Positions 5,000-37,701 of a stretch of 64,000 bases of DNA are shown in pieces. This stretch comes from Flavobacterium stagni (GTDB lineage Bacteria; Bacteroidota; Bacteroidia; Flavobacteriales; Flavobacteriaceae), in NCBI RefSeq assembly GCF_004122105.1, contig NZ_SBKN01000004.1, positions 1 through 64,000 of the forward strand, read 5' to 3'. The stretch's first letter is position 1, and each line of letters opens with the position of its first letter. Under the pieces are notes generated by a model that had not been told where the DNA came from, ran no database searches, and was given only the letters and a program-made list of their open reading frames with translations. The translations under genes and the position numbers were made by a program.

Positions 5000-7900
5000 A
5001 TGATGGAAAAATCTACTTCGAAAGCATACGGATCAAGTATGCCAACCTACAGCTTGCGATGGCTATTCTTAATCGTGTTATTGGTATTTGCAAATACTTT
5101 AACCTTTGGACAATTGTTCCAACAAAATTTTAGTTCGTCTACAACCGTAGCCGATTATGCCAATGCTACTACTCCAACAAACGGACAGTTCAATGCGATT
5201 TCTACCTCTGGGGCAGGTACAGTTTTGTCGATCAATACGACAACATCGAATAAACTGCGATTTGCACGTACAGGAAATGCAGGGGCATTTTCTAGAACGA
5301 CTGATTTTACAGGAACCCCAACCAGTTTGTTGTACCGTTTTGATTTTACGTTAAGTGCAAATTCTACAGCAACTACAAATGCAGCTACATTTCAGATAGG
5401 AAGTGGTTTTGGTACGGCGAGTAGTACAGAGACTAATGCGAATACCCATTCTCGAATCGGTGTTAACTTTACGACCACAGCAGGTCAATTTTCTTTACGG
5501 GATATTGGTGGTGGAACAAGTTCGGCCAATTTTACCGGTGTTCAAACAATTTTGTTAGCCATCAACAACTCTGGAGCAACTTTGACTTATCGTGCTCCTA
5601 ACGGTACTTTTGAAACGGTTGCCAATGATACACAAGATGTTTGGGTTGGGACAACAAAAGTTTTTAATGATATTGCAGCAACTACTGCAACTCAAACTTT
5701 AACTGATATTAAGTATGTTATTTCTGGAGCTAATGGTACAACGGATTTTGATAACTTTTTAATTGATCCAATACCAGCTGTTCCAACATCTAATGCAGCT
5801 TCTTCTATTACCTCCTCTGGATTTACTGCCAATTGGACAGCTGTGTCAGGTGTTACAGGTTATCGTATTGATGTCGCAACCGATGCTGCATTCACAAGTT
5901 TAGTGTCGGGTTATAACAATCTATATGTTTCTGGTCAAGCAACCAACTCGTTAAATGTTACAGGGCTAAGTGGCAATACTACTTATTATTATAGAGTTCG
6001 TGGTGCTTCTCAATACACTGTTGATGAATTTGCTGGTGGAAATTCTACGTCTCAAAGTTTAACAACTTTATCATCTGCCGCAACCGATTTCTGTAACATT
6101 CAATTCCCAACCAGTGCTACTATTGGCGAGGGTGAAACAGTTGCTGTATATGCACAAGCGTATGAGCCAGGCTTAACAGAAGCGGCAGGTGCTGGTTCAG
6201 GTTTGTCTGCATGGATTGGATACAGCGCAACCAATTCAGATCCTTCATTAGGAGGATGGACATGGGTGGCAGCAACATTTAATATTCAATCAGGAAATAA
6301 TGATGAGTTTGTGGCCAATTTAGGTAGTGGTTTAGCCATTGGAACCTATTATTATGCCTCTCGTTTTCAAATAAATTCAGGGCCTTATACTTATGGTGGT
6401 ACAGCAGGTAACTGGTCAAGTACAGCCAATAATGGTGTTTTAACCGTCACTTCAAATGTTGTTGACTTTGCCAATATTCAATCGCCTACTTCAGGTTCAA
6501 TTACAGAAGGCGGTACCTATTCCGTTTATGCTCGTGTGTATGAGCCGGGGGTTACTGTTCCCGCGGGTGCAAGTGCCAACATAACGGCTTGGATTGGAGT
6601 AAATGCTTCTAATACAAATCCAAATACTTGGACAACATGGATTCCGGCTACGTTTAATGCGCAATTTGGAAATGATGATGAATATTTTGCTAATATCGCT
6701 TCAGGGTTAACACCTGGTACCTATTACTATGCTTCGCGTTTTCAAAAAACGGGCAGTACTGAATACAGCTATGGTGGTGTAGGTGGATTATGGAGTAATA
6801 ACAGTGGTGTACTTACTGTAAATCCTGATGTGGTTGATTTTGCTAATATTCAATTCCCTGCTTCGGGGTCAGTGGCTGAAGGCGGTACTTTAAACGTTTA
6901 CATTCAAGCGTATGAGCCTAGTTATACAGAAGCTGGCGGAGCCAATGCAGGATTAACAGCTGAATTGGGTTACAGTTCGACCAATTCCAATCCCAACGGT
7001 GCGGGTTGGACATGGATTGCCACTACTTATAATACACAATCGGGAAATAATGACGAATATGTGGCCAATATTGCGGCAGGTTTAACGCCAGGTACCTATT
7101 ATTATGCTTCTCGTTTTAAAAAATCAACCAGTACCTATTACCAATACGGAGGAACCAATGGAGTTTGGAACAACGATAATGGGGTATTAACCATTACGGC
7201 TGCCACACCGGTAGTCAGTTCAGGTTCGCCATCAGGTACTGTAGGTGTTGCGTTTTCATATTCCATTGTTGCATCCAATTCACCCACTTCATTTGCGGTG
7301 TCATTGGGTACATTACCTTCAGGATTAACGTTAAATACTACAACTGGTCAAATTACCGGTACGCCAACAGCGGCTGGAACATTTGTAGTTAGCGTAACCG
7401 CTTCAAATGCGGCGGGTACAAGTACACCTGCAACATTAACCTTCACTATTGCGCAAGGAAGTCAGACCATCACGTTTGGTGCATTAGCCAATGCTACTTA
7501 TGGGGATGCTCCTATAGCTTTAACGGCTACTGCTTCTTCAGGATTAACAGTTTCGTATAGCAGTTCTGATACCAATGTGGCAACTGTTTCTGGAGCTACT
7601 TTAACAATCGTGGGAGTAGGGACTACTACAATTACAGCTTCGCAAGCGGGCGATGCTAATTATACAGCAGCGACCTCGGTAAATCAATCGTTTACTGTTG
7701 GAGCAAAAGGATTAACAATTTCTGGCATTACAGCCAATGACAAAGTACAAGACGGTACTACAACGGCCACTTTAGCAGGAACCGCTACATTAGTAGGTGT
7801 TGTTTCGGGTGACGAGTTGTTGGTAAGTCTTTCCGGTACACCGACCGCTAATTTTGCAACGGCATTACCGGGTGCAAACCAAGTGGTTACCGTGTCAGGT

Positions 7901-10900
7901 TATACATTATCAGGAACAAAGGCTGGTAACTATACTGTAGCACAACCTTCAGGTTTAACCGCTTCGATTACGGCGTTAAATACATCGGTAGCTACAGCCG
8001 ACACCAATGCAACGGCGACATCTTTTGATGCGAATTGGAATGCGGTTACAGGCGCTTCAGGATATCAATTAGATGTTTATCAAGAAACGACCACTTTTAC
8101 ACCAGGATTATCTGTTTTAAATAATACAGGTACTTTAGGTGCATCGGGTTGGACAGAAACGGCTACTCAAGGAACTGTTTCTGGAAACAGTTATTATCAA
8201 TTGTTAACTTCAACTTCAGTATTGATTAGTCCTGCAATGGATTTTTCGAATTTGTCTAATAAATCTTTGGTTTTCAAGGCACGTACTTTTGGAGGGCCAT
8301 CAACAGCTGAAGCTACAATTACAGTTTCTATTTCGACTAATAATGGTTCCACATGGACAACCCTTGGAACTCGTATCCCTGGTTCGACAACATTAACCAA
8401 TCAAGCTGTGTTTGACTTAAATAGTTATACAGGAACTCAAGTGAAGATTCGTCTTCAAACATTGGGTGCAGCAGGAGGTAGAGGAGTTGGAGTAGATGAT
8501 ATCATTTTAACAGCTGATCAAACTATCGTTAATCAAACCTTTTTGTCAGGATATAACCCTATGGTATTAGGAGCAGTTACATCTACTACAGTGACTGGTA
8601 TAACTTCTTGTACTCAATATAAATACAGAGTTCGTGCAATCAACGGATCAATTGTTACTGCAAATTCAAATGTAATTACAGTTGAAGCGGTTTCTATAGG
8701 CGGAACAGCAACAGGTGATCAAACCATTTGTGAAGGAACACAACCTGCTGCATTGAATGTAAGTGGTCAATGCGGTTCTATTGTAAAATGGCAATCGGCA
8801 AGTGATGCATTGTTTACAACGCCAGTAGATATTGCCTCCACAGCTACTACTTTGAGTGGAGCTACTATAGGTAACTTAACAGCTACTACGTATTTCAGAG
8901 CTGTAGTTCAAAATGGGACACGTCCCGTGGCATATTCGAATGCAGTAACCGTTACTGTTACTCCTTCTACGGTAGCTTCGGTAGCTATTGTTTCTACAGC
9001 AACTACGATATGTATGGGAACTTCAGTAACCTTTACTGCTACACCAACGAACGGTGGCACAACCCCTTCGTACCAATGGAAAGTGAACGGAAACAATGTG
9101 GGTACAGATAATGCTATTTTCACTACAACGGCTTTGGCTAATGGTGATGTGGTAACCGTAGAAATGACTTCCAATGCGACACCTTGTTTAGTAGGTTCGC
9201 CCGCTACTTCGAATAGTATTGCTATCACCGTAAATGCTTTAGCTGCGGCTACGATTTCTGGTACTAACGGTCCGGCACTTTGCCCAGGTAGTGATGTTAC
9301 CTTTACCGTAACAGGAACTTCGAATGCCATTTTATATTATAATTTGAATGGAGGAAGTACAGCGTTTACTGTGTTAACAGGAGGTTCCGCTACCATTACT
9401 GTTACAGGAGCGACTTCAACCCAAACCTTGAATTTAGAATCTGTTGACAATGGAATTTGTCCGGTTACTTTGTCTGAATCCGCTTCAGTAACTGTTGAAA
9501 CAACTACTTGGGATGGTACAGCATGGAGCAATGGTGCGCCTTCAGCAACTAAAGCAGCTATCATTGCGGGTAACATGACCATTACTTCTAATATTGAAGC
9601 TTGTAGTTTAATTGTAAATAACAATGCGGTGGTTACGGTTGCCTCAGGTTATAATGTAACCTTACAAAATGCATTAACAGTAGCTTCAGGAAGTACCTTT
9701 ACAGTAAATAGTAATGCCAACTTGATTCAAGTGAATCCAGCCGCTGTGAATAGTGGAAATATCGTAGTAAAACGTACAACCAACCCATTAATGCGTTTTG
9801 ATTATGTATTATGGGGTTCACCTGTTGCGGCGCAGAATATCTTTAATTTCTCACCGTTGACTTCTGTGAGTCCGACTGTTCGTTTCTATTCTTATAATAG
9901 CACAACGAATTCGTATAATTCAGTTTCTGATTATGCTACACACGTAATGAATGTTGGAAAAGGCTATTTGATTCGTTTACCGTTTAACCACCCTACGGCA
10001 CCTGCCACTTGGACAGGTTCGTTTACAGGCGTACCTAACAACGGTACGGTAACGGTTAGCTTAGCGAATAATGGAGCAGGTTTCCGTTATAATGCGGTAA
10101 GTAATCCGTATCCATCGACTTTAAGTATGGCACAGTTCTATGCGGATAACGTGAATAACATTGAGCCTACTTTGTATTACTGGAGAAAAACCAACAGTAC
10201 GTCGAATCCTTCGTATTGTTCGTACAACTTATTTACCGATACATTCATTGATAACGATCAGCCGTTTACAGAGAATCCAAATGGTGCTATTCAAGTAGGA
10301 CAAGGATTCTTTGTAGAAGCCAAAGACGCTTCAACCAGTGTTGAATTTAACAACGGACAACGTATTGGTAACAATGCCAACCAAATGTTCCGTAACGCAA
10401 CGCCAAGTGCACAAACTATAGAGAAACACCGTATTTGGTTGAATCTTACCGGTGCAGCAGGAGAGTTCTCTCAAGCGATGGTTGGGTATTTCACAGGAGG
10501 TACTTTGGGTGCTGATGCTACTGACGCCAAGTTCTTTAATGACGGTATTGCGGTGTTGAATTCAAAAATTAATGGTACAGAATACATTATGAATGGTCGT
10601 CCAGTTCCTTTTGATGCGTCGGATATTGTGCCGATGAATTTGAAAGTAACAACTGCTGGAACATATACGATTGCCATCGATCACAAAGACGGATTGTTTG
10701 CGGATACAGCACAAGATATTTTCTTGAAGGATAATGAAACAGCTACGTATCACAATTTGAATAATGGTCCGTATACTTTCACAGCGCAAGCGGGTGCTTT
10801 TGAAAACCGTTTTGAATTGGTATATCAAAATGCATTAGGAACAATCGATCAAACATTAGATGCAACTGCTTTTGCCGTGGTAAAATCCAACGGTAAAGTA

Positions 10901-11083
10901 AGTGTTAAAGCCAATACTACATTAGAAACTGTGTCTATCTATGATATTCATGGCCGATTAATCACACAAGTTACGAATGTGAATGCACAAGAAGTAACGG
11001 TACCGGTGCAAGTTGCGGACCAAGTTTTACTGGTTCAGGTAACTACAACCGATAAGAAAACAGGAGTGAAGAAAGCGTTATAA
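5000..11083 (+). CDS. Giant secreted T9SS type C multidomain adhesin-like protein
   Basis: 2027 residues. A hydrophobic signal segment (about 19-37) is preceded by a polar leader; an internal ATG at 5039 is an alternative start. Domains inferred from pattern: jelly-roll-like sandwich (about 38-260); FN3 (262-355); three consecutive repeats of about 122 residues (360-735) sharing VDFxNIQxP, YEPG, GNNDE and GTYYYASRF; a putative-Ig (GxPSGTVGVAFSY, 735-817); Ig-like 2 (818-902); a YDG/MBG-like domain (903-995); an FN3 split by a jelly-roll insertion (1000-1230); three Ig-like domains (1235-1500). Then comes the shared C-terminal module starting TTWDGTAWSNGAP (about 1500) with a type C-like sorting domain in the last 80 residues (VSIYDIHGR ... 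KTGVKKAL). No catalytic motif was recognised, so adhesion or surface structure is the likely role. Own terminator, so probably monocistronic. Confidence 0.85.
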   Translation: MMEKSTSKAYGSSMPTYSLRWLFLIVLLVFANTLTFGQLFQQNFSSSTTVADYANATTPTNGQFNAISTSGAGTVLSINTTTSNKLRFARTGNAGAFSRTTDFTGTPTSLLYRFDFTLSANSTATTNAATFQIGSGFGTASSTETNANTHSRIGVNFTTTAGQFSLRDIGGGTSSANFTGVQTILLAINNSGATLTYRAPNGTFETVANDTQDVWVGTTKVFNDIAATTATQTLTDIKYVISGANGTTDFDNFLIDPIPAVPTSNAASSITSSGFTANWTAVSGVTGYRIDVATDAAFTSLVSGYNNLYVSGQATNSLNVTGLSGNTTYYYRVRGASQYTVDEFAGGNSTSQSLTTLSSAATDFCNIQFPTSATIGEGETVAVYAQAYEPGLTEAAGAGSGLSAWIGYSATNSDPSLGGWTWVAATFNIQSGNNDEFVANLGSGLAIGTYYYASRFQINSGPYTYGGTAGNWSSTANNGVLTVTSNVVDFANIQSPTSGSITEGGTYSVYARVYEPGVTVPAGASANITAWIGVNASNTNPNTWTTWIPATFNAQFGNDDEYFANIASGLTPGTYYYASRFQKTGSTEYSYGGVGGLWSNNSGVLTVNPDVVDFANIQFPASGSVAEGGTLNVYIQAYEPSYTEAGGANAGLTAELGYSSTNSNPNGAGWTWIATTYNTQSGNNDEYVANIAAGLTPGTYYYASRFKKSTSTYYQYGGTNGVWNNDNGVLTITAATPVVSSGSPSGTVGVAFSYSIVASNSPTSFAVSLGTLPSGLTLNTTTGQITGTPTAAGTFVVSVTASNAAGTSTPATLTFTIAQGSQTITFGALANATYGDAPIALTATASSGLTVSYSSSDTNVATVSGATLTIVGVGTTTITASQAGDANYTAATSVNQSFTVGAKGLTISGITANDKVQDGTTTATLAGTATLVGVVSGDELLVSLSGTPTANFATALPGANQVVTVSGYTLSGTKAGNYTVAQPSGLTASITALNTSVATADTNATATSFDANWNAVTGASGYQLDVYQETTTFTPGLSVLNNTGTLGASGWTETATQGTVSGNSYYQLLTSTSVLISPAMDFSNLSNKSLVFKARTFGGPSTAEATITVSISTNNGSTWTTLGTRIPGSTTLTNQAVFDLNSYTGTQVKIRLQTLGAAGGRGVGVDDIILTADQTIVNQTFLSGYNPMVLGAVTSTTVTGITSCTQYKYRVRAINGSIVTANSNVITVEAVSIGGTATGDQTICEGTQPAALNVSGQCGSIVKWQSASDALFTTPVDIASTATTLSGATIGNLTATTYFRAVVQNGTRPVAYSNAVTVTVTPSTVASVAIVSTATTICMGTSVTFTATPTNGGTTPSYQWKVNGNNVGTDNAIFTTTALANGDVVTVEMTSNATPCLVGSPATSNSIAITVNALAAATISGTNGPALCPGSDVTFTVTGTSNAILYYNLNGGSTAFTVLTGGSATITVTGATSTQTLNLESVDNGICPVTLSESASVTVETTTWDGTAWSNGAPSATKAAIIAGNMTITSNIEACSLIVNNNAVVTVASGYNVTLQNALTVASGSTFTVNSNANLIQVNPAAVNSGNIVVKRTTNPLMRFDYVLWGSPVAAQNIFNFSPLTSVSPTVRFYSYNSTTNSYNSVSDYATHVMNVGKGYLIRLPFNHPTAPATWTGSFTGVPNNGTVTVSLANNGAGFRYNAVSNPYPSTLSMAQFYADNVNNIEPTLYYWRKTNSTSNPSYCSYNLFTDTFIDNDQPFTENPNGAIQVGQGFFVEAKDASTSVEFNNGQRIGNNANQMFRNATPSAQTIEKHRIWLNLTGAAGEFSQAMVGYFTGGTLGADATDAKFFNDGIAVLNSKINGTEYIMNGRPVPFDASDIVPMNLKVTTAGTYTIAIDHKDGLFADTAQDIFLKDNETATYHNLNNGPYTFTAQAGAFENRFELVYQNALGTIDQTLDATAFAVVKSNGKVSVKANTTLETVSIYDIHGRLITQVTNVNAQEVTVPVQVADQVLLVQVTTTDKKTGVKKAL

Positions 11084-11532: not shown

Positions 11533-14500
11533 ATGGAAAAAATGTACACACAATTATCGAAGAGATTCTGTTATTTGTTTTTGTTGTTTTTGTTTTTTGG
11601 CAATGTGGGTCAACTTATGGCTCAGTCATCAACATACAATGCTGATGGAACTTTTACAGCACCTCACAACACAAGTTCAGTTACTGTAGAGTGCTGGGGA
11701 GGTGGAGGACGTGGTGGATCCACGGCAAGTAACGGTACTGAAACCGGTGGAGGAGGAGGGGGTGCTTATGCCCGCAAAAATTCACAAGCAGTAACTCCTA
11801 ATTCAAATTACACTGTTGTGGTAGGTGTTGGTAGTACAGGAACAACTGCTGGTGGTGATTCTTATTTTAACACTGCAGCTACTGTTATGGCCAAAGGAGG
11901 GAACTCAGTAGCCAATAATACTGCAGGTGGAGCAACCGGTGGATCAGCAGCTGCTTCAGTTGGTGATGTTAAATTTTCAGGAGGTAATGGAGCTAATGGT
12001 TCTAATGGTAACAATGGAGGCGGAGGCGGATCTTCTGCCGGTACTGCTGCAAATGGAACAAATGGAGGAAGTCCGGCTGGAGGTGTAGCGCCGACAGGTG
12101 GAGGAAATGGAGGAGCAGGACGTTCAGGAAGTAATGGAAATGGTAACGCAGGAAGTATTCCTGGCGGCGGCGGCGGCGGCGTACTATCGGGTAACACAAA
12201 CAGTAGAACGGGTGGAGCTGGAGCGAATGGTCGTGTAGTCGTTTCATGGACATGTTCCAATGTATTGACATCAGGTACAGGTACAAATAATCAAACCATT
12301 TGTTTTGGTAGTGCGATTACAACCATTACGTATACATGTTCGGGTGCTTATGGGGCTACTTTTACAGGATTGCCAGCTGGGGTTACAGGAACCTACACAG
12401 ATGGTTCAATAGTAATTTCTGGAACTCCTACAGTTACGGGGGTATTTAATTATACCGTAACTCCTACAGGCAGTTGTACATCTTCGATAGTAACAGGTAC
12501 GCTTACTGTGAATCCAAAGCCTACAGATGTTACCGCTACTGCAAGTCAGAGTTCAATTTGTGTGGGTAGTAGTGTAAATTTAACAGCTGCTGCTAATTCT
12601 AATATTTTCTCAACTCCAATTACTGTTTTTTCTGAGAATTTCAATGCAGGAACAAATAGTTGGACCTTAACCAATACTGGTACAGGTGGTACACCCGCAT
12701 TAGCGGATTGGACTTTGCGTGCAAATGGGTATACGGTAAGTTCTGAGACTTTCAATAGTAATGATGCTTCACAGTTTTACATGTCCAACAGTGATGCACA
12801 AGGAAATGGATCTACAACTGCAACGATTCTTCAATCCCCTGCATTTAGCACTGTGGGAATGAATTCTGCAAATTTAACTTTTTATCATTACTACCGCTAT
12901 AATGGTTCAGAAACTGGATTAGTTCAAATTTCTACCAATGGTACAACTTGGACAACGCTTTCGGGTCCCTATACAGCTACTCAAGGTACTTCTACCAATT
13001 TTAGTTTGGTGACTTTGAATATTAATGCTTATATCAATCAACCAACCGTTTATGTTCGTTTCAAATACGATGCAAGTTGGGATTGGTATTGGGCAGTTGA
13101 TAATGTTACAGTAAGTGGTATTTCTTCAACGCCAGAAGATTGTACCTATGCATGGACTTCTTCTCCAGCTGGGTTTACTTCTTCGCTTAAAAACCCTTCA
13201 GGAGTTACACCATCTGTAACTACAACGTATACAGTTGTTGCTACAAACGCGTTAGGTTGTTCAACATCGGCTTCAACAACGGTTACGGTTAATAATTACG
13301 TTACTGCATCAGTAAATATTGCGGCTTCTCAAACTACAATTTGTGAGGGCACTAATGTAACTTTTACTGCAACACCGACCAATGGAGGAACAACTCCATC
13401 TTATCAGTGGAAAGTAAATGGAAATAATGTGGGAACAGATAGTGCAACGTATGCTTCAACTAGTTTAGTTAATGGTGATGTAGTTACTGTGGTGATGATT
13501 TCTAATGCAACACCATGTGTTAATGGTACACCTGCTACATCCAATAGTATTTCAATGACTGTAATACCGAGTTTACCAGCTTCTGTAAGCATTGCAGCAT
13601 CAGCGACAACCATCTGTGAAGGGACTTCAGTAACGTTTACAGCGACACCAACCAATGGAGGTTCAACCCCTTCGTACCAATGGAAAGTGAACGGTAATAA
13701 CGTAGGTACAGATAATGCTTTGTATACGACTACAGCTTTACAAAATGGCGATGTGGTAACGGTTGTGATGACATCAAACGCTTCACCGTGTTTGACGGGT
13801 TCCCCTGCGACTTCAAATACTGTTACGATGACAGTAAATCCATTAGCGTCAGCAAGTATTACAGCTAACAATGGCCCTGTTCAATGTTATGGAAGCGATA
13901 TTAGCTTTACGGTAAGTGGAACAACCAATGCGATTTTATATTATAATTTAAATGGAGGAGGGACTCAGTTTACGGTATTAACCGGTGGCTCGGCAACCAT
14001 TACGGTAACGGGAGCTACGGCTTCACAAACTTTAAACTTGGTATCGGTAGACAACGGTCAATGTCCTGTAACCCTCTCAGAAACGGCTACAGTTACTGTA
14101 AATACCACAACTTGGGATGGAACATCATGGAGTGATGGTACACCAGATGCTACCAAGGCTGCTTTTGTAACCGGTAACTTAACCATTGCGAGTAACCTAC
14201 AAGCTTGTGCGTTAGTGATTTCAAATAATGCTATCGTTTCGGTGGCTTCGGGATCGAATGTAACCTTACAAAACGCGATTTCAGTAGCTTCAGGAAGTAG
14301 CTTTACGGTGAATAGTAATGCGAACTTGATTCAAGTAAATCCGAATGCGGTGAATAGCGGAAACATCGTGGTAAAACGCGCTTCGAATCCATTGATTCGT
14401 TTGGATTATATCTTATGGGGTTCACCAGTGGCGGGACAGAATTTGTTCAACTTTTCACCGCTGACTTCTGTAAATCCTAATATTCGATTCTACCAATATA

Positions 14501-24800: not shown

Positions 24801-25514
24801 AACCAAATGTTTAAAACGGGTGCCAATGCAACACAATCCCAATTGGGTCAAGAATCAGATCGTTTTTGGGTAAAAATGACAAGTGCTACCGGTTCATATT
24901 CACAAATTATGGTGGGTTATTTTCCTGAAGCTACAAATGGTTTGGATTCTGATATTGATGCCAAACAAATTGCAGATGGCGACATCTTATTAAGTACAGT
25001 GGTGAATGCTGAAAACTATGCGATTCAAGGACGTGTTGCGCCTTTTGATGCAGCTGATGTTGTTCCTATGAATTATACAGTAACTACAGCAGGTACGTAC
25101 ACACTTTCTCTTGATGCTTTCGAAGGAACTTTTAATGGAAATACAACCGTATTTTTAAAAGATAATGTTGCAGGAACAATGGTTTCTTTACAAGATGGAA
25201 ATTATACATTTACTACTGCTGCTGGAAGTTTTGCTAATCGTTTTGAGTTGCATTATCAAACATTGTTAGGTCAAGTAGAATTGCCACAATCGGAATCAAT
25301 TGGAATCAAATTTGTGAAAGGAAATTTGAAAGTTAATGTTGAAAATGATACTATTGATGAAGTTCAAGTATATGATTTAAACGGTAAAAAAGTAGCGTCT
25401 TCAAAAGGAATTCACGCTGCTCAATTTGAAATGAACAGTTTGCCAAAATCTACGGTATTGATCGTAAAAGTCAGTACAGAAAATAAAGCAGTTGCGGTAC
25501 GTAAAGTAATGTAA
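21891..25514 (+). CDS. Secreted T9SS type C protein with N-terminal glycine-rich domain
   Basis: 1207 residues, the shortest giant of the array. Signal peptide about 1-29 ending VNAQ. Glycine-rich domain about 30-235, an Ig-like domain 240-330, a jelly-roll module with NENFNGS and WYWAIDN (359-530), an Ig-like domain to about 588, one further small domain, and the C-terminal module from about 670, which starts SSWTGAINTLWNEAGNW rather than the TTWDGTAWSNG form. The type C-like sorting domain is in the last 80 residues (VQVYDLNGK ... VAVRKVM). Domain order matches 11533-15687 except for the extra Ig-like pair there, so the two are paralogues. The C-terminal module has diverged and lacks the near-identity shared by the previous two genes. 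Adhesion is inferred. Confidence 0.86.
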   Translation: MKTTVQNLTSKIVYAALFGMMLLTWQVNAQSKTINASGTFTVPHGVTSVTVECWGGGGKGGSTLSNGTETGGGGGGAYAKKNAVTVTPGSTQNVVVGLGSSTTAAGGDSYFISTTTILAKGGNSCANNSNTGAAGGSSSNSVGDVRRAGGAGANGSSGNYGGGGGSSAGPNNSGVAATNANGATAPTGGGNGGNGRSGSNGNGTAGTIPGGGGGGVMSSGSNSFSGGNGANGQVIISWSCSNTLTSATGTDNQSLCLHTSITTITYSMVGAYGATFSGLPTGVNGTYTDGAISITGTPTTAGVYNYTITPVNGCSSNIITGKITVLAPPTNLSAVASSTAICSGEAVNLIVSSNSNSALSAVIFNENFNGSSNGWTLFNTSIGGTVENAAWTLRANGYTISSETFTSNDASQFYMSNSDAQGSGTTTATQLVSPAFSTVGLTEATLTFYHYYRYYDGNESGLVQISTDGATWTTIAGPYTANQGSANGFSLVTLNLNAYVGHANVKIRFKYDATYDWYWAIDNVKVEGTFATAPEATYSWTSSPAGFTSDVKNPTGIVPTQTTTYTVTATNSYGCSSTTSVTVVVNQPLTFTNLSADANDILANATTTVRANDVSGTNANVSWFTEPNGNGNFLGTGADLSNVGPGKYYAQITGSCGTTIEQSIEVFGLSSWTGAINTLWNEAGNWAEGVVPNAYCKVTIGTGKTAEVLAQDATAYSLAIAGNGVLTVKSGKNITVMNAISTVNATNLIVESNANLVQVDAVANTTAITVKRKSAALKRLDYILWSSPVAGQNVLAFSPLTSVSPTSRFYTYNTTLNTYNSIATPSAVNFDAAKGYLIRVPNNHPTAATIWNGQFVGVPNNGNITYTLTNSADATKRYNLVGNPYPSAISLSKFIDANQNNIKGTVYFWRKTNGAPNSSYWAISKYGYSSNGEGVNPNGIIQVGQGFIVEAKADATQVVFNNDMRILDNANQMFKTGANATQSQLGQESDRFWVKMTSATGSYSQIMVGYFPEATNGLDSDIDAKQIADGDILLSTVVNAENYAIQGRVAPFDAADVVPMNYTVTTAGTYTLSLDAFEGTFNGNTTVFLKDNVAGTMVSLQDGNYTFTTAAGSFANRFELHYQTLLGQVELPQSESIGIKFVKGNLKVNVENDTIDEVQVYDLNGKKVASSKGIHAAQFEMNSLPKSTVLIVKVSTENKAVAVRKVM

Positions 25515-28700: not shown

Positions 28701-31524
28701 AACTACTGGGGTTTCGGGATCGATAGCAACGGGTTTTACCTTTAATCCAACAGTAACTACAACCTACACTTTGATGGCAACACAAAGTGGTGGCAGTCTT
28801 TGTGGAAATATAACTTCCATTACGATAAATGTTAAAGCGGCTCCACCTGCGGTTTCCATCTTACCTGTCAATCCAACAATTTGTCAAGGTACAATATTGC
28901 AATTATTTGGAAGTACGAGTGTGGCCACACCTTCAGTTGTTTTAAATGAAAATTTTAACAGTCCGGTGAATAATTGGGTAGTTGCCAATACTTCTTCTGG
29001 TGGAAATCCAATAGATTCTCAATTTACATTGCAACCTTCAGGCTATAATTATATCAATGCTTTTGGTTGGGATGTTACTTTTTCAAGTAATGATGCGAGT
29101 CAATTTTATTTAGCCAATTCTGATGCCCAAAGTGCGAGCTCTGGTACAACAACCCGAACTACATTAACTTCGCCCACTTTTGATTTGATTGGCTATACTT
29201 CGGCTAATATCAATTTCTATCATTATATTCGTTTTATTTCTGGGGATAAATTTTGGATTCAAGTTTCTACCGATTCAGGATCAACATGGAATACCTTACA
29301 GTCATACACAGCTTCACAAGGTGTTGCTAATGCTTTTGCTAACAGTATAGTGAATATGACTCCCTACTTAGGAATGTCCAATTTGAAAATACGTTTCTAT
29401 TATGAATCCAATTGGGGCTATTGTTGGGCATTAGATAATGTCAAAATTTCGGGAACTTTATCTGCAGCGTTAACATGGTCGCCTATTACTAATTTATATA
29501 CTGATGCAGCTTGTACGGTTCCGTATACTGCAGGAGCTGCCCTAACTTCTGTATATACCAATTCCCCGAATACGATAACTTATCAAGCAACATTGACAGG
29601 TTCCAACGGTTGTTCAAGAACCGGATTTAGTGCTATTACAGTTTCTCCACCAACAGTTGCAGGTGTCTTGGGTGATTCTCAAATTGTTTGTACCTTAACT
29701 ACACCCGCGAATTTAGTGTTGACGGGCAATGTGGGTAATGTTGTTCGCTGGGAATCTGCAGATGATGCGGCATTTACACTAAATGTAGCCAATATTGCCA
29801 ATACCACTACAACTTTGACTGCTGCTCAAATGGGTACCATTAATCCTATAAAATATTACAGAGTACAAGTGAAGAGTGGAGCATGTAACGCCTTATATTC
29901 CAATGTGGTTTCGGTGGCTATTCCTGTTACAACTTGGAATGGAACAGCATGGAATAACGGCGCTCCCACATCCAGTGTTCGAGCAATTTTTGCTGGAAAT
30001 TATACTTCCACAGGTGATTTAAATGCGTGTTCTGTTCGGGTGAATTCAGGGACAATTACCTTTAATGCAGGTCATTCACTTATCGTACAAAATGATGTTG
30101 TTGTGGCAGCGGGTTCCTTAGTGTTTAACGACACAGCTAGTTTGGTGCAAGTTGTCGATGGGGCAGTCAATTCGGGTAATATTGTTTATAAACGAACTGC
30201 CATGCCTATGCGTAAGTTTGATTTTACTTATTGGTCTTCACCAGTGGCGAATCAAGTTTTGAATGTATTTAGTCCGGTAACCCCTGCCGATAAGTTCTTT
30301 GTGTATGATCCTGTAAGTGTCAATTGGGTGAATGTATTAAATACGAGTACAATGACGCCTGGGAAAGGATACATTATTCGCGCACCAAGTTCATACAGTC
30401 CTGTGACAACTTCTATTTTTAATGGTTCGTTTTCAGGGGTACCCAATAACGGACCTGTAAATGCTCCGGTTGTTTTTAGTACCACAAATTATAATTTGAT
30501 AGGAAATCCGTTTCCAAGTGCAATTAACGCCGATGCCTTTTTGTCGCATCCTAATAATATAGGTGTAATCGATGCCACTTTGTATTTTTGGACCCATAAC
30601 ACACCCATGACCAATAATAATTATACCAATAATGATTATGCGATTTATAATTATTTAGGAGGAACAGGTACAAGTGCTGCTGCGAATACAGGAGTAAATA
30701 CAGCCATTCCTAATGGTAAAATTGCAGCGGGCCAAGGTTTTTTTGTGAAAGCTTTAGTTTCGGGTAATGTACTTTTTTCAAATAGTATGCGTATTGCTGG
30801 AAACAACAATCAGTTCTTTAGAATGCAAAATGGCAACCAAACACAAGTTACAACAAACCATCGTTATTGGTTAGATGTAACGAATGGTTCAGGTGCGTTC
30901 AAACAAACATTGGTTGGTTATTCAGCTGAAGCGACATTGGGATTGGACCGCGGTTATGATAGTGATTTTATAGATGTTGGTTTGCCGATGGCTTTATATA
31001 GTGTGTTGCCCCGTGGACAATCCTTATCTATCCAAGGTAGGGGATTGCCATTTGAAGTTTCGGATGTGGTGCCTTTGGGATTTAAATCAACAGCCTTAGA
31101 TGATTATACCATTCATTTGTCTGCCTTTGATGGGTTGTTTGATTTCCAAAGTATTTATTTGAAAGATCGTTACCTTAATATTATACACGATTTAAAAGCG
31201 GGGGATTATTATTTCCGTTCCAATGCAGGGACTTTTAACGACCGTTTCCAAATCGTTTATTCCACAGCGTTATTAAATACATCCGAATTGGAATATTCCA
31301 ATTCAGTTATATTATATCATCAAAACGATAAAATAACGATTCATTCACAAACAGAGTGGATTGAACGTATTAATGTTTATGATGTGAGAGGTGTTTTATT
31401 GGCTACTCAAAAAGAGATCGATCAACAAGAGATCAGTTTTGATTTAGCCATACCCGATCAAGTTGTTTTGTTTGAAATTTGGACGAACGACGGCAAAAAG
31501 ATAGTTCGGAAATACGTGAAATAG
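25711..31524 (+). CDS. Giant secreted T9SS type C protein with lectin-like, FN3 and cleaved-adhesin-type domains
   Basis: 1937 residues. Signal peptide about 1-28 (ending MNAQ). Domains by pattern: an N-terminal beta-sandwich shared with the 32347 and 37855 genes (29-265; IGFNFSYDN, SPNGFITFG, VQVGLRG); an FN3-like region and FN3 (266-472); a cleaved-adhesin/MAM-like sandwich (475-640; YTQNFDT, FIAIDDISV); FN3 (640-735); Ig-like (736-1050); a jelly-roll (1075-1250; NENFNSP, YCWALDN); Ig-like (1320-1408); the shared C-terminal module from about 1407 (TTWNGTAWNNGAP); and a type C-like sorting domain (INVYDVRG ... GKKIVRKYVK). The C-terminal module is closest to that of the 32347 gene (PMRKFDFTYWSSPVA). 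Likely adhesin; no enzyme motif seen. Confidence 0.86.
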   Translation: MHPNNTLVRHFFLTIVILMVLSAKMNAQVSAYSFTQTIPVSGYVPLSGGTVAFAAPWDDDAPVQVPIGFNFSYDNTVFTNCYISPNGFITFGATPPTVANYTPMSTATVYNPGNTGGAVAAMGVNLSSNGSPIEYGVIGSAPNRTFIVQWSNANRKTTAVVPGDFDFQIQLSETTNAITFSYGNCDTTQSTTSVNVQVGLRGFDNNLVQGNVFNRVQGSSQLWGNSGATIQGAVNTATLFTNGTAYPNFGLQFIFAPGSPCTTPAELPTALVLGGTSITSTSFVGNSFTPPTNPPSKYMVVRSLSNTPPTAAIFVNRTFYPVGTTVSGFLVVANSNLTTFNQTGLASNTTYYYWVIPYNDKCIGAPYYNLTTPLSGSATTCFATTVAGAATSVGGNGFTANWSAVTGATSYSIDVSTSNTFASFVTGYNNLSIPTGTTSLVVSGLLPSTTYYYRVRANGPGCVVNSATITATTTCGYYTIPYTQNFDTTTVGNVPVCYSVLNNNADTNQWKVQAVSFTSSPRSIQIDKNPAADMNDWFILPGLNLTGGVSYRLTFRYNTGSVSGNSENLSVFYGTAQTSAGMVNNLVSLPGITNNFFETQTVDFAPGISGIYYIGFYGSSLANQTFIAIDDISVTLSPSCLDPSNLNVTTIGSTTASLTWTASSIAPSQGYEYYLSTTSTPPTGATVATGSVGAGVTTLNLSGLSPSTYYWIWVRGNCGPSDKSIWTTEETFNTECSTPTITSTIPVTRCGYGNGTLTANSSVGSSIRWYATSTGSTVIGTGTTITTPNTLTDITYYAEARAFGAIAKTGPVNPSLQLGTRTVQNYAAKVDFTVNSSTTLQSVDIFPMVSGQAGRFIVRTIGNIPVATINYTTNVSGGNTLQTIAINANLLPGNYYLFFETVPSSGIRMNSTNGTYPYSSSVATIDGNDINPVYYMGAYNWKFTTECLSPRTPVTLTVTAPPTLSLSATDFTICEDETTPVVNVIGSANYNSFTWSPTTGVSGSIATGFTFNPTVTTTYTLMATQSGGSLCGNITSITINVKAAPPAVSILPVNPTICQGTILQLFGSTSVATPSVVLNENFNSPVNNWVVANTSSGGNPIDSQFTLQPSGYNYINAFGWDVTFSSNDASQFYLANSDAQSASSGTTTRTTLTSPTFDLIGYTSANINFYHYIRFISGDKFWIQVSTDSGSTWNTLQSYTASQGVANAFANSIVNMTPYLGMSNLKIRFYYESNWGYCWALDNVKISGTLSAALTWSPITNLYTDAACTVPYTAGAALTSVYTNSPNTITYQATLTGSNGCSRTGFSAITVSPPTVAGVLGDSQIVCTLTTPANLVLTGNVGNVVRWESADDAAFTLNVANIANTTTTLTAAQMGTINPIKYYRVQVKSGACNALYSNVVSVAIPVTTWNGTAWNNGAPTSSVRAIFAGNYTSTGDLNACSVRVNSGTITFNAGHSLIVQNDVVVAAGSLVFNDTASLVQVVDGAVNSGNIVYKRTAMPMRKFDFTYWSSPVANQVLNVFSPVTPADKFFVYDPVSVNWVNVLNTSTMTPGKGYIIRAPSSYSPVTTSIFNGSFSGVPNNGPVNAPVVFSTTNYNLIGNPFPSAINADAFLSHPNNIGVIDATLYFWTHNTPMTNNNYTNNDYAIYNYLGGTGTSAAANTGVNTAIPNGKIAAGQGFFVKALVSGNVLFSNSMRIAGNNNQFFRMQNGNQTQVTTNHRYWLDVTNGSGAFKQTLVGYSAEATLGLDRGYDSDFIDVGLPMALYSVLPRGQSLSIQGRGLPFEVSDVVPLGFKSTALDDYTIHLSAFDGLFDFQSIYLKDRYLNIIHDLKAGDYYFRSNAGTFNDRFQIVYSTALLNTSELEYSNSVILYHQNDKITIHSQTEWIERINVYDVRGVLLATQKEIDQQEISFDLAIPDQVVLFEIWTNDGKKIVRKYVK

Positions 31525-32221: not shown

Positions 32222-32255
32222 GTTTTTTACCGATGAAACTCTGCTTTTTATCGAT
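32222..32255 (+). promoter_or_regulatory. Phased TCGAT-type pair upstream of the 32347 gene
   Basis: GTTTTTTACCGAT (core 32229) and GCTTTTTATCGAT (core 32250) are 21 bp apart in direct orientation. A near-match -7 box, TAAATTTA, lies at 32304. Confidence 0.75.
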
Positions 32256-32346
32256 TTGGGCTTTCTTCCTTTTTTGAATTGAAATTTTTACAAAAAAATA
32301 ATGTAAATTTAGCGCCAAATACAAGGATTACCCTAAATAAATCGCT

Positions 32347-35300
32347 ATGGCAAAAAAAATACACGTAAACGTTGTGAATAATGGATTCTTGCGATTCATT
32401 ACTTTAATTGTGCTATTCCTTAATTTTGGAGTTCAAGCACAGAGTTATACCGTTACACAAACCAACTGGACAGCTGGTTATACTACATTTCCATTGTCAG
32501 GTCGTACCACTTTGGCGGCTACAGGAGGTAATGTGGATGATGTTGTTTATCCCTTGACTATACCTTTTTCATTTGGATTCAATGGAGGGACTTATACCAC
32601 GGTGAACATGTCAACCAATGGTTTCGTGTATTTTGGTACGGCAACAGGAACGCCTGCAACGGAATATTTTCCAATTTCTTCTTCGGCTACAAATTATACA
32701 GGTGGAGGAGCCATTTCGGTATATGGGCGCGATATGGATTTGATTGGTACAACTGCCACCGTAAATATGGGTTGGGTAGTTACAGGTACTGCACCGAACC
32801 GTATTTTTAAGATGGATTGGGTAACCCGTCGATCAATTGGCGCTAATGCTGTGCCTGCTAGTGAAGCTTCTATGGTATTTCAATTATGGTTGTATGAAAC
32901 AACCAATGTGATTGAAATGATTTACAATAATGCTACGTTTACCAATACTACGGCGATTTTAACAGGGCAAATAGGTATTAGAGGTGCAACAAATACAGAT
33001 TTTATTAACTTATCATACACAAACTCTGCGGCACAATGGCCGGGTTCGGCAACAACGCCTAACCAAATGGCATTAGGAACAGCTAATACAGATAGTGTAG
33101 TAACTAAAGGAAATACGGCTGCTTCGGCAACTATTCAAGCCACTTCCAATCGATTATTCCGCTGGACGCCGGTGTCTTGTTTTGCACCTACAGGGTTGAC
33201 AGCTTCTAATATAACATTTAATAGTGTAGATTTAACTTGGCTAGCGGCTTCACCAGCTCCTGCCAATGGATATGAATATTATGTAGGGACAACTTCACCA
33301 ATTGGGGCTTCTCCAGCTACAGGGTCTGTAGGTGCGGGGGTTTTAACCGCGAGTGCTACAGGATTGTCATCAGGTACATTGTATTATTATGCGGTACGTT
33401 CAGTATGTAGTGGTGTTGATAAAAGTGCCTGGACTACAGTAGGTACTTTTACTACCTATTGTGCACCAACCAATATCACGTACTATGAAGGCTTTGATGG
33501 TCCTTCAGTGGTCGTGCCGGCTACTTCACCCAACCATGGAAACATTCCTTCGTGTACATACGCAGTGAATGCAGGTACAGGGAACCCATGGGTAACGACC
33601 TATGAAGATTATTACCCGGGCTTAAATATGTTTTTCCAAGGGAACTTTTTAATGTACAACGGTCAAAGTCCGTCCAATGGTAATACGGCCAATGCATGGT
33701 GGTTTACCAACGGTTTGAACTTAACTGCCGGTACAACGTATCGTATATCGTTTTTCTATAGTGGTACCGATACTCCTTCAACGGTTCAAAACAAACTTAA
33801 AATTGGTTTAGCCACTTCGCCGTTGGCGGCTGGTGTAACCACCATTTTAGATGATTTGCCAAATATTAAAGGAGGACCAAGTGAAAATGTAATCAACTTT
33901 ACAGCGCCTTCTACGGGTGTATTTTACATTGGATTTAATGCGTATTCTAATCCGAATAACGGTCAATTAGCGGTAGATGATGTTACGGTGGCGCCTGCGA
34001 TTTGTTTAGCCGCTTCTAATGTAACTGTTGCTAATATTACAGCTTCATCAGCTTTATTAAGTTGGACTTCCCCATCACCAGCTCCTGCTAATGGTTTTGT
34101 TTATTATTATAATACTACTGGTGCTGCTCCAACAAATGCAACTGTTCCGTCAGGATCTGTTGGGGTTGGTGTTACCAGTTTGAACTTAACTGGTTTGAAT
34201 GGAAGTACCAATTATTATTTTTGGGTGCGCACCTATTGCGGTGGCGGCGATTATGGGGAATGGGTAGCGTTGAACAATTCAGGTTCTGGATTTTTCACCA
34301 CATTATACCAACCTCCTTTCTGTGTTCCGGCAGTATCTGCTTCACCGAATACTTCTACTTACATTACCAATGTTACTACTACAGGGGGTACAGCTAACTT
34401 AAATAACAGTTCAGGGTATTCAACGGGAAGTTATGGTGACTATTCCGCTCAAGTAGTGGCACAGGCTCCTGGATTTTCAGTGAATATGTCGATTGGTTTT
34501 ATCGCGACTGGTGGAGTAGGTGTAGCGGTATATGTAGACTGGAACAATGACGGTACTTTTGCAGTTGCAGAGCGTATGTACAATTCCGCTACTTATTTAT
34601 CTACTTCACCTGTAAATACAGTTATTAACGTGCCAGGTGCACAAGCTTTAGGCGATTACCGTATGCGTGTAGTGGCTGATTATTGGGCAACCAATCCACT
34701 TCCTTGTACCTATGGAAGTTCTCCTTCTCGTTGGGAAGTAGAAGATTATACCTTCCGTGTTGTAACACCACCACCACCATTGTCAATCAACATTACTTCG
34801 GATACACAATGTGCGGGTAATCCATCGGCTTTGGTGCAATTAACTACTCCAGTTTCAAATTATCAGTCTTATTCTTGGTTGCCAAATGTAGGTGTTTCAG
34901 GATCTCCTGCAGCTGGTTGGACATTTACCAACACTGTCACTACAGTTTATACATTAACAGCTAATGAAACTATAGCTCCTTTTGGTTCTAGACAATTAAC
35001 ATTTACTTACATAGCCAATCAAACTCCAACACCGATTGTTTTGTCACCCGCTACGCCAACCGTTTGTGGATCTGGTCCAGCGGTGCAGTTAACATCAACG
35101 GGTGGTTTGGTTTCAGGTTTTCCTATATTAAGTGAGAACTTTAATACAGGAGCACCAGGTTGGACATCTTCATCTACTGCAGCGCATACAGGTGGAAATA
35201 CTGCAGTTTCTTTATGGCAAATTCAAAACTCTCCTTATGACGGAATTGTCAGTCCGGACTCCTCTCAATTCATGGTGTCTGATTCTGACGGTCAGGGAAG

Positions 35301-37701
35301 TGGGTCAACTACTTTCGTTGAATTGACATCTCCAGTATTTAGTTTGGTGGGTTACACAGATGCGTCATTAAGTTTTTATCATTATTATCGTCCATGGATT
35401 AATGGTACGGCCACGGTTTACATTACCACAAATGGAGGTACAACATGGACACAAATTCGTCAATGGACAAATACAGCTAATGGAGAGACTACACAAGGTA
35501 CAACAACCAATTTTGCTTTAGTTAATCTTCCTTTGGTTGCCTATGTAGGACAAGCCAATGTGCAAATTAAATTTACCTATACTGCACAATGGGGTTGGTA
35601 CTGGGCAATCGATAATTTCTTAGTTTCAGGTACAGCTTCCTCGGCTGTAAATTGGAACTTGGCTACTGGCCCAGTAGCCAATGGGGTTGCAGTTCCAGGA
35701 TTGTATACTGATGCTGCTGCTACAACGGCTTATATCGCAGGTACTGGTTCAGCATCAGTTTATGCGTTACCAACAGCGACTACAGATTATACAGCAAGTG
35801 CAAGTACGCCAGCACCTGTTTGTGCTACTAATAGTTCAATAACTGTAACGTTATCAAATGTAGGTGCGGGAACTGCATCATCCGATCAAACGATTTGTAG
35901 TGGGATGCCTGCGAACTTAACATTGACAGGTTATACAGGTACTATTACAAAGTGGCAATCGTCTACGACAGCTGCATTTACAACACCGGTTGATATTGCA
36001 GCAAGTGCATCGGCGACCTTGACTTCTGTTCAAATGGGAGCGATAACAGCAACCACCTATTATAGAGCAGTAGTAACCAATGGAGGTTGTACAGGGTATT
36101 CGAATGTGGTTACAATTACGGTTAGTACGAGTACATGGAATGGATCAGTATGGAGTAACGGAGTACCTTCTCTAACTAAATCGGCAATTTTTGCTGGTAA
36201 TTACAGTTCGACTGGTGACTTATCGGCTTGTTCGGTAACTGTTCAAAGCGGTACAGTTGTATTTAATACGAATCATACCTTAACGGTTCAAAATGCGGTA
36301 ACAGTAACAGGTGGATCTTTAACTTTTGAAAACGCTTCAAGTTTGTTACAGGTAACCAATGCGGTAAACTCAGGTAATATTACTTATAAACGTACAACAA
36401 CACCTATCCGTAAGTTTGACTTTACGTATTGGTCATCACCAGTAGCGCCACAAACATTGGTAGCATTATCGCCATTAACGCAATTTGATAAATATTTCAC
36501 CTTTGATCCTGTAATTGGTAACTGGGTTACAGTTGCCTCATCATCTCTAATGGTGGCTGGTAAAGGGTATATTATTCGTGGACCCAACAATTTTGATCCT
36601 GTGGTTGCGGCTCCTTACAATGCCTCTTTTGTGGGTGTGCCCAACAACGGTACCATTACGGCTCCAATTGCTTTGGGAACATCGGATGTGAATTTAATTG
36701 GTAATCCGTATCCAAGTGCTTTGAATATTGATTTGTTCATGGATTACAATGGTAATACTGGATTAAACTTAGTGGATAAAACAATCTACATATGGACACA
36801 CAATACAGCCATGACCAATAATAATTATACGAATAGCGATTATGCGGTATACAATTACATGGGTGGGGTAGGAACTGCTGCAGCACCAGGTTCAAATAAT
36901 GCTGTTCCAACAGGAAAGATTGCTTCAGGTCAAAGTTTCTTTATCAAAGGTTTAGCTAATGGAAATGCTATTTTCAACAACACCATGCGTGTAGCTGGAA
37001 ATAACGCGCAATTCTTCCGTTCGGCGGCTGATAAGAGTCGTGTTTGGTTGCAGATTTATGACGGTGCAGCTGGCTATAAACAAACTCTAGTAGGTTATGC
37101 AGATGGTGCTACTAATGGTGTTGAAAGTGGTTATGATGGTGATTTATTTGATGCTGGAAATGCAGTAACATTATATTCGTTGGTAGGTAATTCTAAATTG
37201 ACTATCCAAGGTAGAGCTTTACCATTTAATGTAAACGATGTTGTGCCTTTGGGTTATAAAGCAACTGAAAATGGCAACTTGACTATTAGCTTGCATAATT
37301 TTGACGGAGTGTTTACTTCACAAGATATTTACTTAAAAGATAACGCGTTGAATGTAATCCATGATTTGAAAGCAGGCGATTACACATTTGCTACTGGAGC
37401 GGGTACTTTTGAAAACCGTTTCGAATTGGTTTACACGAACAATGCCTTAGGAATTGATACTCCTGAGTTCTCAAATTCGGTTGTGGTGTATGCTCAAAAT
37501 GGAGTGATTCATGTACAATCTTCTTCTTCCAATTTAGACCATATCGAAGTGTATGATGTACGCGGTGCGAAGTTAGCAACGATGCAAAATGTGAACAGTA
37601 ATACAGCTCAATTAGCCCATGTTAGCAATGCGAATCAGTTACTATTTGTTAAGGTAACTGATCAAAATGGCAATACTTTAACAAGAAAAGTACAGTATTA
37701 G
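32347..37701 (+). CDS. Giant secreted T9SS type C protein with lectin-like, FN3 and GEVED domains
   Basis: 1784 residues. Signal peptide about 1-32 (ending VQAQ). N-terminal beta-sandwich (33-275; IPFSFGFNG, STNGFVYFG, GQIGIRG); FN3 (278-372); cleaved-adhesin/MAM-like domain (374-555; YYEGFDG, LAVDDVTV); FN3 (552-650); a GEVED-type domain (658-808) with YVDWNNDGTF and the closing WEVEDYTFRV; an Ig-like domain (810-895); a jelly-roll (927-1098; SENFNTG, WYWAIDN); Ig-like (1175-1262); the shared C-terminal module from about 1261 (STWNGSVWSNGVP); and a type C-like sorting domain from about 1699 (IEVYDVRG ... GNTLTRKVQY). The DWNNDG loop could bind calcium, by inference. Surface adhesin likely; no catalytic motif seen. 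Confidence 0.86.
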   Translation: MAKKIHVNVVNNGFLRFITLIVLFLNFGVQAQSYTVTQTNWTAGYTTFPLSGRTTLAATGGNVDDVVYPLTIPFSFGFNGGTYTTVNMSTNGFVYFGTATGTPATEYFPISSSATNYTGGGAISVYGRDMDLIGTTATVNMGWVVTGTAPNRIFKMDWVTRRSIGANAVPASEASMVFQLWLYETTNVIEMIYNNATFTNTTAILTGQIGIRGATNTDFINLSYTNSAAQWPGSATTPNQMALGTANTDSVVTKGNTAASATIQATSNRLFRWTPVSCFAPTGLTASNITFNSVDLTWLAASPAPANGYEYYVGTTSPIGASPATGSVGAGVLTASATGLSSGTLYYYAVRSVCSGVDKSAWTTVGTFTTYCAPTNITYYEGFDGPSVVVPATSPNHGNIPSCTYAVNAGTGNPWVTTYEDYYPGLNMFFQGNFLMYNGQSPSNGNTANAWWFTNGLNLTAGTTYRISFFYSGTDTPSTVQNKLKIGLATSPLAAGVTTILDDLPNIKGGPSENVINFTAPSTGVFYIGFNAYSNPNNGQLAVDDVTVAPAICLAASNVTVANITASSALLSWTSPSPAPANGFVYYYNTTGAAPTNATVPSGSVGVGVTSLNLTGLNGSTNYYFWVRTYCGGGDYGEWVALNNSGSGFFTTLYQPPFCVPAVSASPNTSTYITNVTTTGGTANLNNSSGYSTGSYGDYSAQVVAQAPGFSVNMSIGFIATGGVGVAVYVDWNNDGTFAVAERMYNSATYLSTSPVNTVINVPGAQALGDYRMRVVADYWATNPLPCTYGSSPSRWEVEDYTFRVVTPPPPLSINITSDTQCAGNPSALVQLTTPVSNYQSYSWLPNVGVSGSPAAGWTFTNTVTTVYTLTANETIAPFGSRQLTFTYIANQTPTPIVLSPATPTVCGSGPAVQLTSTGGLVSGFPILSENFNTGAPGWTSSSTAAHTGGNTAVSLWQIQNSPYDGIVSPDSSQFMVSDSDGQGSGSTTFVELTSPVFSLVGYTDASLSFYHYYRPWINGTATVYITTNGGTTWTQIRQWTNTANGETTQGTTTNFALVNLPLVAYVGQANVQIKFTYTAQWGWYWAIDNFLVSGTASSAVNWNLATGPVANGVAVPGLYTDAAATTAYIAGTGSASVYALPTATTDYTASASTPAPVCATNSSITVTLSNVGAGTASSDQTICSGMPANLTLTGYTGTITKWQSSTTAAFTTPVDIAASASATLTSVQMGAITATTYYRAVVTNGGCTGYSNVVTITVSTSTWNGSVWSNGVPSLTKSAIFAGNYSSTGDLSACSVTVQSGTVVFNTNHTLTVQNAVTVTGGSLTFENASSLLQVTNAVNSGNITYKRTTTPIRKFDFTYWSSPVAPQTLVALSPLTQFDKYFTFDPVIGNWVTVASSSLMVAGKGYIIRGPNNFDPVVAAPYNASFVGVPNNGTITAPIALGTSDVNLIGNPYPSALNIDLFMDYNGNTGLNLVDKTIYIWTHNTAMTNNNYTNSDYAVYNYMGGVGTAAAPGSNNAVPTGKIASGQSFFIKGLANGNAIFNNTMRVAGNNAQFFRSAADKSRVWLQIYDGAAGYKQTLVGYADGATNGVESGYDGDLFDAGNAVTLYSLVGNSKLTIQGRALPFNVNDVVPLGYKATENGNLTISLHNFDGVFTSQDIYLKDNALNVIHDLKAGDYTFATGAGTFENRFELVYTNNALGIDTPEFSNSVVVYAQNGVIHVQSSSSNLDHIEVYDVRGAKLATMQNVNSNTAQLAHVSNANQLLFVKVTDQNGNTLTRKVQY

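Follow-up and report, generated by a model that had tools for sequence, protein, structure and literature searches.

Within the 64,000 nucleotides of the Flavobacterium stagni contig NZ_SBKN01000004.1 analyzed here (hereafter the window), six giant genes stand side by side, begin differently, and end alike. What is their common C-terminal part, and how did it come to stand behind so many kinds of N-terminus? Our analysis suggests a model in which the six encode a family of RemA/RemZ-like surface proteins whose base is shared and whose outer parts differ, and in which stretches of sequence have been recopied between neighboring genes. We consider this model probable.

Six adjacent giant genes share a C-terminal module

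The list of open reading frames and an alignment of their products revealed six long, adjacent frames with similar ends on the + strand between positions 5000 and 37701:

5000..11083, + strand, g1: 2027 aa; fn3 and YDG, also Ig-like repeats (by eye and from a weak match), module, type C tail
11533..15687, + strand, g2: 1384 aa; Gly_rich_2 N-terminus (a family also found in RemZ), module, type C tail
15913..21594, + strand, g3: 1893 aa; repetitive N-terminus (beta-solenoid by eye), Ig_3, module, type C tail
21891..25514, + strand, g4: 1207 aa; Gly_rich_2 N-terminus, module, type C tail
25711..31524, + strand, g5: 1937 aa; fn3, Ig_7, module, weak type C tail
32347..37701, + strand, g6: 1784 aa; fn3, GEVED, module, type C tail

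The last 523–538 residues of the six proteins align end to end, which confirms the initial annotation of six tandem giant genes with a common C-terminal module. This block consists of a module of 435–453 residues followed by a tail of 85–88 residues; across both, pairwise identity ranges from 33 to 82% over 503–525 aligned columns. The module without the tail contains 93 invariant columns in the six-row alignment (A1), and the tail contributes just three more. The constant block had been described as the last 520–540 residues; these are indeed alignable to the end, but the conserved part proper is a module of about 440 residues:

9503..10825, + strand, module of g1: 441 aa; covered by no Pfam or NCBIfam family over cut-off
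14107..15426, + strand, module of g2: profile match
20017..21336, + strand, module of g3: profile match
23898..25256, + strand, module of g4: profile match
29929..31260, + strand, module of g5: profile match
36130..37434, + strand, module of g6: profile match

Chance similarity among the six was rejected because the A1 profile, searched against the entire host genome (3.18 Mb), yielded 12 matches at E ≤ 0.001, comprising the six array genes and six weaker matches, two of them partial. A second cluster in this genome (G000, contig C32, 46000–65000; locus L117) contains two near-complete copies and one partial copy of the module.

The identity of the module with a known Pfam domain was likewise rejected. 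In Pfam and NCBIfam scans of the six proteins, no family over its cut-off covers the module, and the single match inside it is Y_Y_Y, which lies below its cut-off and spans 25 residues of g1. A Pfam scan of 86 members of the module family found PF18962, a sorting domain family, in 17, G8 in two, and two further families in one member each; member 1 had no match.

The N-termini had been characterized as Gly-rich, beta-solenoid, lectin-like, or FN3-rich. Pfam bore out the first and last of these kinds, with Gly_rich_2 in g2 and g4 and fn3 in g1, g5, and g6, and also placed YDG in g1, GEVED in g6, and Ig-like families in the set. The lectin-like label found no counterpart, as none of the six proteins matches a lectin family at E ≤ 0.01.

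The run of giant genes continues with a seventh (37855–46377; 2840 aa). Its tail is of type A, the module profile does not match it, and its N-terminus is 32–33% identical to those of g5 and g6. Downstream (48657–53009), two adjoining genes for PPIC-type peptidyl-prolyl isomerases are followed by a MoxR-type ATPase gene. No RNA or tRNA features were found in the window.

The module matches the C-terminal part of RemA and RemZ

A profile of module plus tail, built from 86 rows that include all six window genes, was compared with the sequences of solved structures; g1, g2, g4, and g5 were also searched singly. The profile matched RemZ (8gl8) with an E value of 3.5e-150 over positions 2–517 of 518 and RemA (8gl6) with an E value of 2.6e-140 over positions 1–517. 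Apart from these two, nothing in the set fell below an E value of 0.05. The homology to RemA and RemZ thus spans the full length of the C-terminal block, module and sorting domain together. As a sequence, the module is not new; it corresponds to the C-terminal part of RemA and RemZ, left without a Pfam or NCBIfam match in the six proteins. The literature passages searched contained no prior account of the module or of recombination among these genes.

RemA (Fjoh_0808), a gliding adhesin, resembles the window proteins in matching module and tail over the whole profile, in lying within an array of module genes, and in passing the type C model NF033708. It differs in carrying a SUEL lectin domain at residues 729–803, whereas none of the six has a lectin match; RemZ lacks one as well. 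RemZ (Fjoh_0803), a T9SS substrate trapped in the Extended Translocon, is the best match among the solved sequences and shares Gly_rich_2 with g2 and g4, but the N-termini of g1, g3, g5, and g6 are of other kinds. The adhesins of the SprB/SprF system are likewise giant surface proteins served by this secretion machine (PMC12618676, PMC12635249); they are of type B, whereas the six window genes have no match to the type B domain (TIGR04131) at E ≤ 0.01.

In an F. johnsoniae genome (G572), the gene at 912495 matches the PDB sequence of RemA over residues 1–1436, and the RemZ tail is 100% identical. Five module genes lie within 21 kb of this genome, between 896039 and 916805. Four of them were scanned with Pfam and differ in their matches: SUEL lectin (RemA), Gly_rich_2 (RemZ), DUF5122 propeller repeats, and DUF7507/DUF11. 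The layout of a constant base with differing heads thus extends to this model organism. Through this kinship, a large group of giant proteins from flavobacteria gains two counterparts that are open to study in F. johnsoniae, and an unannotated unit of about 440 residues is now defined and testable as the base of these proteins.

N-termini are kept at some positions and replaced at others

Among the loci found, the nearest relative with a name is Flavobacterium fontis. We compared the array with syntenic arrays in F. fontis (G062), a pond genome (G061), and two further genomes (G037 and G040), which represent species rather than strains. g5 and g6 have full-length orthologues in all four arrays, with N-terminal coverage of 0.98–1.00 and identity of 42–79%. 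Among the six closest modules, the best N-terminal coverage was 0.22 for g1 (one partner of which is cut by a contig end), 0.37 for g3, and 0.68 for g4. At the g4 position, G062, G061, and G037 carry another kind of head, alike among themselves by eye; the head of window g4 is 59.7% identical to that of g2 over 149 aa. The g2 head is orthologous in F. fontis (0.93 coverage, 65% identity), and the F. fontis gene that bears this g2-like head has a tail nearer to that of g3 (47%) than to that of g2 (35%).

The cassette layout proposed in the initial annotation, in which display is constant and the exposed part varies, describes g1, g3, and g4, whose N-termini differ across species, but not g5 and g6, whose heads are kept in all four arrays. 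N-termini that stay constant speak against such a layout, and those of g5 and g6 are 98–100% covered in what is a comparison of species, not strains. The mosaic sequences of these species suggest that heads may have been exchanged.

A tree of the modules mostly groups them by gene position and places g2 and g3 as sisters at 92% identity; 11 of its 20 inner branches have good support, and joined long branches drew a warning from the program.

Recombination-like tracts between neighboring genes

The close resemblance of g2 and g3 is concentrated in a tract that begins upstream of the module and covers residues −74 to 291 in module numbering:

13882..14979, + strand, tract of raised g2/g3 identity, part in g2
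19792..20889, + strand, tract of raised g2/g3 identity, part in g3

In blocks of 50 codons spanning g2 residues 717 to 1166, nucleotide identity is 90–96% in eight of nine blocks and 83% in the other. Outside these blocks it declines stepwise, through 72, 66, 55, and 42% upstream and 78, 76, 67, and 39% downstream, so that the borders of the tract are graded, not sharp. The best segment spans 366 codons, in which third positions are 84% identical compared with 49% outside, a difference reached in 0 of 1000 permutations. When the comparison was restricted to module and tail, a segment of 126 codons (149–274) remained, with 90% identity inside and 61% outside.

Several sets of gene pairs were subjected to the same kind of test, in which the permutation presumes even constraint along the gene. 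Five of an initial twelve pairs reached 0 of 1000 permutations. Among twelve control pairs, mostly orthologues and in one case g6 with a g5, no pair gave 0 of 1000, and segments extended to at most 63 codons. Five of them nevertheless had counts below 50 of 1000 (the lowest being 8), which shows the test to be lenient; a low value by itself therefore says little. Tract length is a stronger sign of recombination than a low permutation count. A wide test that included 400 residues upstream gave 0 of 1000 in 6 of 61 same-stretch pairs and 8 of 104 cross-source nearest pairs, numbers that can be inflated because the upstream residues can bring in unrelated heads. The test of module plus tail was passed by five of the 61 same-stretch pairs, which come from three arrays (three of the five from one), and by three of the 104 cross-source pairs, one of which (L058/L067) lies in a single metagenome bin. 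The pair at L087, significant in the twelve-pair test, fell below the thresholds of the module-plus-tail test.

Two further cases resemble g2/g3. In F. alvei (L092), three genes share tracts at the opposite end, of about 190 codons including the tail. In F. johnsoniae, RemA (912495–916805) and a neighbor (904059–907124) share 446 codons with 91% identity at third positions and 98% protein identity within the tract. A remA mutant is reported to form misshapen microcolonies (PMC8481357), and the near identity of the two C-terminal tracts matters for the reading of remA mutants. In this limited sample and with a lenient test, the bounded tracts in g2/g3, the F. alvei trio, and RemA with its neighbor look recombination-like, and either conversion or crossover may have produced them. 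Since the block is common to the copies, they could recombine within it, which would recopy stretches of the module and let heads and tails change partners, as the mosaics suggest, with the heads of g5 and g6 being kept.

These genes might also be an ordinary paralogous family, in which duplicated adhesins diverge fastest at their exposed N-termini and no special exchange takes place. g5 and g6 behave as plain full-length orthologues, the module tree follows gene position for the most part, 56 of the 61 same-stretch pairs stay below the tract thresholds, and uneven constraint alone yields low permutation counts in some controls. Divergence of this kind does not readily account for a 366-codon tract in g2/g3 (84% versus 49%, 0 of 1000) when the twelve controls reach 63 codons at most, or for unrelated heads at orthologous g4 positions. 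We take this alternative seriously yet find it somewhat doubtful.

Conservation and predicted structure of the module

AlphaFold2 predicted the module and tail of g1 from the 86-row alignment with a mean pLDDT of 92.1 and a pTM of 0.80. The module divides into three parts:

9503..9778, + strand, first part of the g1 module, residues 1–92: short regular strands that we read as a putative beta-solenoid
9779..10420, + strand, central domain, residues 93–306: modeled alone as 86–306
10421..10825, + strand, last part, residues 307–441: putative beta-sandwich

Folded alone, the central domain (86–306) reached a mean pLDDT of 89.5 and a pTM of 0.86. It matched no PDB entry at E ≤ 0.001 (best, 0.19) and had no Z score of 2 or more among 991 aligned chains, which makes it possible that the predicted model represents a new fold. 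Results of a Foldseek search with the whole model, and of a second look, were taken up by hits to the sorting domain and to widespread Ig-like folds.

Over the 86 rows, mean column identity is 0.57 in the solenoid, 0.61 in the central domain, 0.63 in the sandwich, 0.43 in the linker, and 0.53 in the sorting domain; the central domain contains 17 invariant columns. Compared with their partners at the g1, g4, g5, and g6 positions, modules are 65–81% and tails 30–66% identical. Conservation is stronger in the module than in the sorting signal that follows.

Such conservation is what might be seen if the module were itself a binding domain for a sugar, matrix, or partner protein rather than a passive stem, with the N-terminal parts serving as extra heads. 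All three of its parts exceed the linker and the sorting domain in column identity, its identity to positional partners exceeds that of the tails, and its central domain combines invariant columns with no solved fold match found. No known binding family matches the module, however, and its fixed place beside the sorting domain suits a stem or a partner-docking surface equally; we judge a binding role unlikely. The best reading of its role is that the module may form the membrane-proximal stem of the mature RemA/RemZ-like protein. The N-terminal domains would then face outward as binding heads, a lectin family match being present in RemA only.

Distribution of the module

Counting the host, the module was present in 53 of 61 sampled genomes of the genus and 96 of 149 of the family; in the phylum it was present in 72 of 296, with at most five candidates scored per genome in the last set. 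The matches listed from outside the order are partial and weak. Flavobacterium-like module genes also occur in records titled Bifidobacterium breve, Rhizobium, Klebsiella pneumoniae, and Nitrotoga (L034, L036, L039, L050, L058, and L067), which are probably mislabeled metagenome bins.

It is tempting to speculate further that the module is an unrecognized stem used throughout the Flavobacteriaceae, with a central domain of new fold, and that it serves as a shared recombination platform on which heads and tails are reshuffled, even with foreign copies. This extended version of the model strikes us as rather unlikely.

Sorting domains and export

Each of the six modules is followed by a T9SS sorting domain:

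10826..11080, + strand, g1 sorting domain (T9SS, type C model): matches that of RemA in predicted fold
15427..15684, + strand, g2 sorting domain: alignment and model scoring
21337..21591, + strand, g3 sorting domain: alignment and model scoring
25257..25511, + strand, g4 sorting domain: alignment and model scoring
31261..31521, + strand, g5 sorting domain: alignment and model scoring
37435..37698, + strand, g6 sorting domain: alignment and model scoring

The initial annotation recognized a type C-like tail in all six, and each does match NF033708. Passage of its curated cut-off of 40 bits varies with the mode of scoring. As isolated tails, g1 (42.5), g4 (41.5), and g6 (55.7) pass and the other three, g2 (39.6), g3 (37.2), and g5 (23.9), fall below it, a departure from the type C (ChiA type) domain; as whole proteins, only g6 passes; and in the genome search g1, g2, g4, and g6 do. 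On the type A model TIGR04183 (curated cut-off, 23 bits), the isolated tails of g2 (23.2), g3 (25.3), and g4 (30.7) pass and those of g1 (17), g5 (14.9), and g6 (22) remain under. The tail of the seventh gene, our type A control, scored 54.3 bits with the type A model and 13.7 bits with the type C model.

RemZ and RemA tails scored 71.1 and 63.6 bits on type C, more than any window tail, and 26.6 and 24.4 bits on type A, which barely exceeds the cut-off of that model. The NCBI type C model thus places both proteins far above its cut-off although the structural papers class them as type A. Because RemA and RemZ, type A in the translocon papers, pass both models, type C by far more, type C here appears to be a sequence subtype and does not imply a separate route. 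In one review, type C is given as the ChiA type, and the question of a different mechanism is left undecided (PMC10202324).

We identified 134 module domain matches in 104 loci, drawn from genomes of the genus and from contigs mostly titled Flavobacterium or Flavobacteriaceae. In 125 of these, the match reaches the end of the model and a stop follows within 200 residues; nine were left out, six in frames cut by a contig end and three partial or split. The corresponding tail set also has 125 rows, five duplicates having been merged (120 distinct) and L001 (window g2) replaced by the six window tails, so that 119 come from loci. At E ≤ 0.01, the type C model matches all 125 tails, and the type A model matches 117 of them as well. 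In the host genome, a type C match follows the module in 12 of 12 cases when positions are compared, and all six type C matches over cut-off belong to proteins with the module.

Farther away, the best listed match of each of 40 other genera, out of 94 with a match, was examined. All 40 have a tail of 86–96 residues, with type C matched in 38 and type A in 36 at E ≤ 0.001. Ten more distant tails were scored singly. Four of them, picked for their type A appearance, gave 55–65 bits on type A and 22–27 on type C; of the remaining six, type A gave the higher score in four (in one case by 0.1 bit) and type C in two. Further distant loci examined numbered 12 (L176–L187), of which L183 and L184 gave no match on rescoring, and in L185 and L187, partial matches at class level, 344–347 residues follow with no tail directly adjoining. 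A strict tie between module and type C was rejected because eight of the ten distant tails score higher on type A; the module appears to go with T9SS sorting domains more generally. The proposal that it works with type C sorting domains fits all 125 close tails but not some tails of other genera, which are ordinary type A.

The initial annotation also proposed that the module might be an export adaptor. A requirement for it, alongside the sorting domain, in translocon passage is very improbable: mCherry and sfGFP are exported when fused to the RemA sorting domain with no module present (PMC10994853, PMC12618676), and 37 of 49 type C matches in the host genome at E ≤ 0.01 lack the module (all 37 score below the cut-off, and many of them may be cross-matches of type A domains). 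In favor of an adaptor, the module precedes the sorting domain in all 125 close tails, and a tail of 86–96 residues is present in all 40 genera.

The predicted g1 sorting domain superimposes on that of RemA in the translocon (8gl6) with a Z score of 11.5 and 1.4 Å over 72 residues, and on RemZ (8gl8) with a Z score of 10.1. The g1 tail, the one modeled, thus has the predicted fold of a sorting domain bound to SprA and PorV, and the host genome encodes SprA, PorV-family, and GldJ proteins, all over curated cut-offs. A Lys at position 83 of the g1 tail is present in 90% or more of the 125 tails. From its place, this may be the nearly invariant Lys near the C-terminus of type A substrates that contacts PorV (PMC10994853). 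PorV was pulled down with the RemA sorting domain, and RemA is partly anchored and partly released (PMC12618676).

By analogy with RemA, for which this is known, each tail would be bound by SprA and PorV and carry its protein across the outer membrane, so that the six may use the PorV route. Cleavage would then remove the tail, and the C-terminus of the module would remain at the cell surface, as work on RemA and RemZ suggests; the mature protein could be either anchored or released, as reported for RemA and type A substrates. Several observations count against our model of RemA/RemZ-like proteins with recopied stretches: the constant heads of g5 and g6, the lack of a lectin match in the six, unlike RemA, the occurrence of tracts between genomes as well, the graded borders of the g2/g3 tract, the two loci without an adjoining tail (L185 and L187), and the partial release of RemA.

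Ten tails, from L042, L046, L049, L058, L059, L061, L065 (two), L070, and L071, are 109–123 residues long and extend about 20–35 residues beyond where the sorting domain usually ends before a stop is reached.
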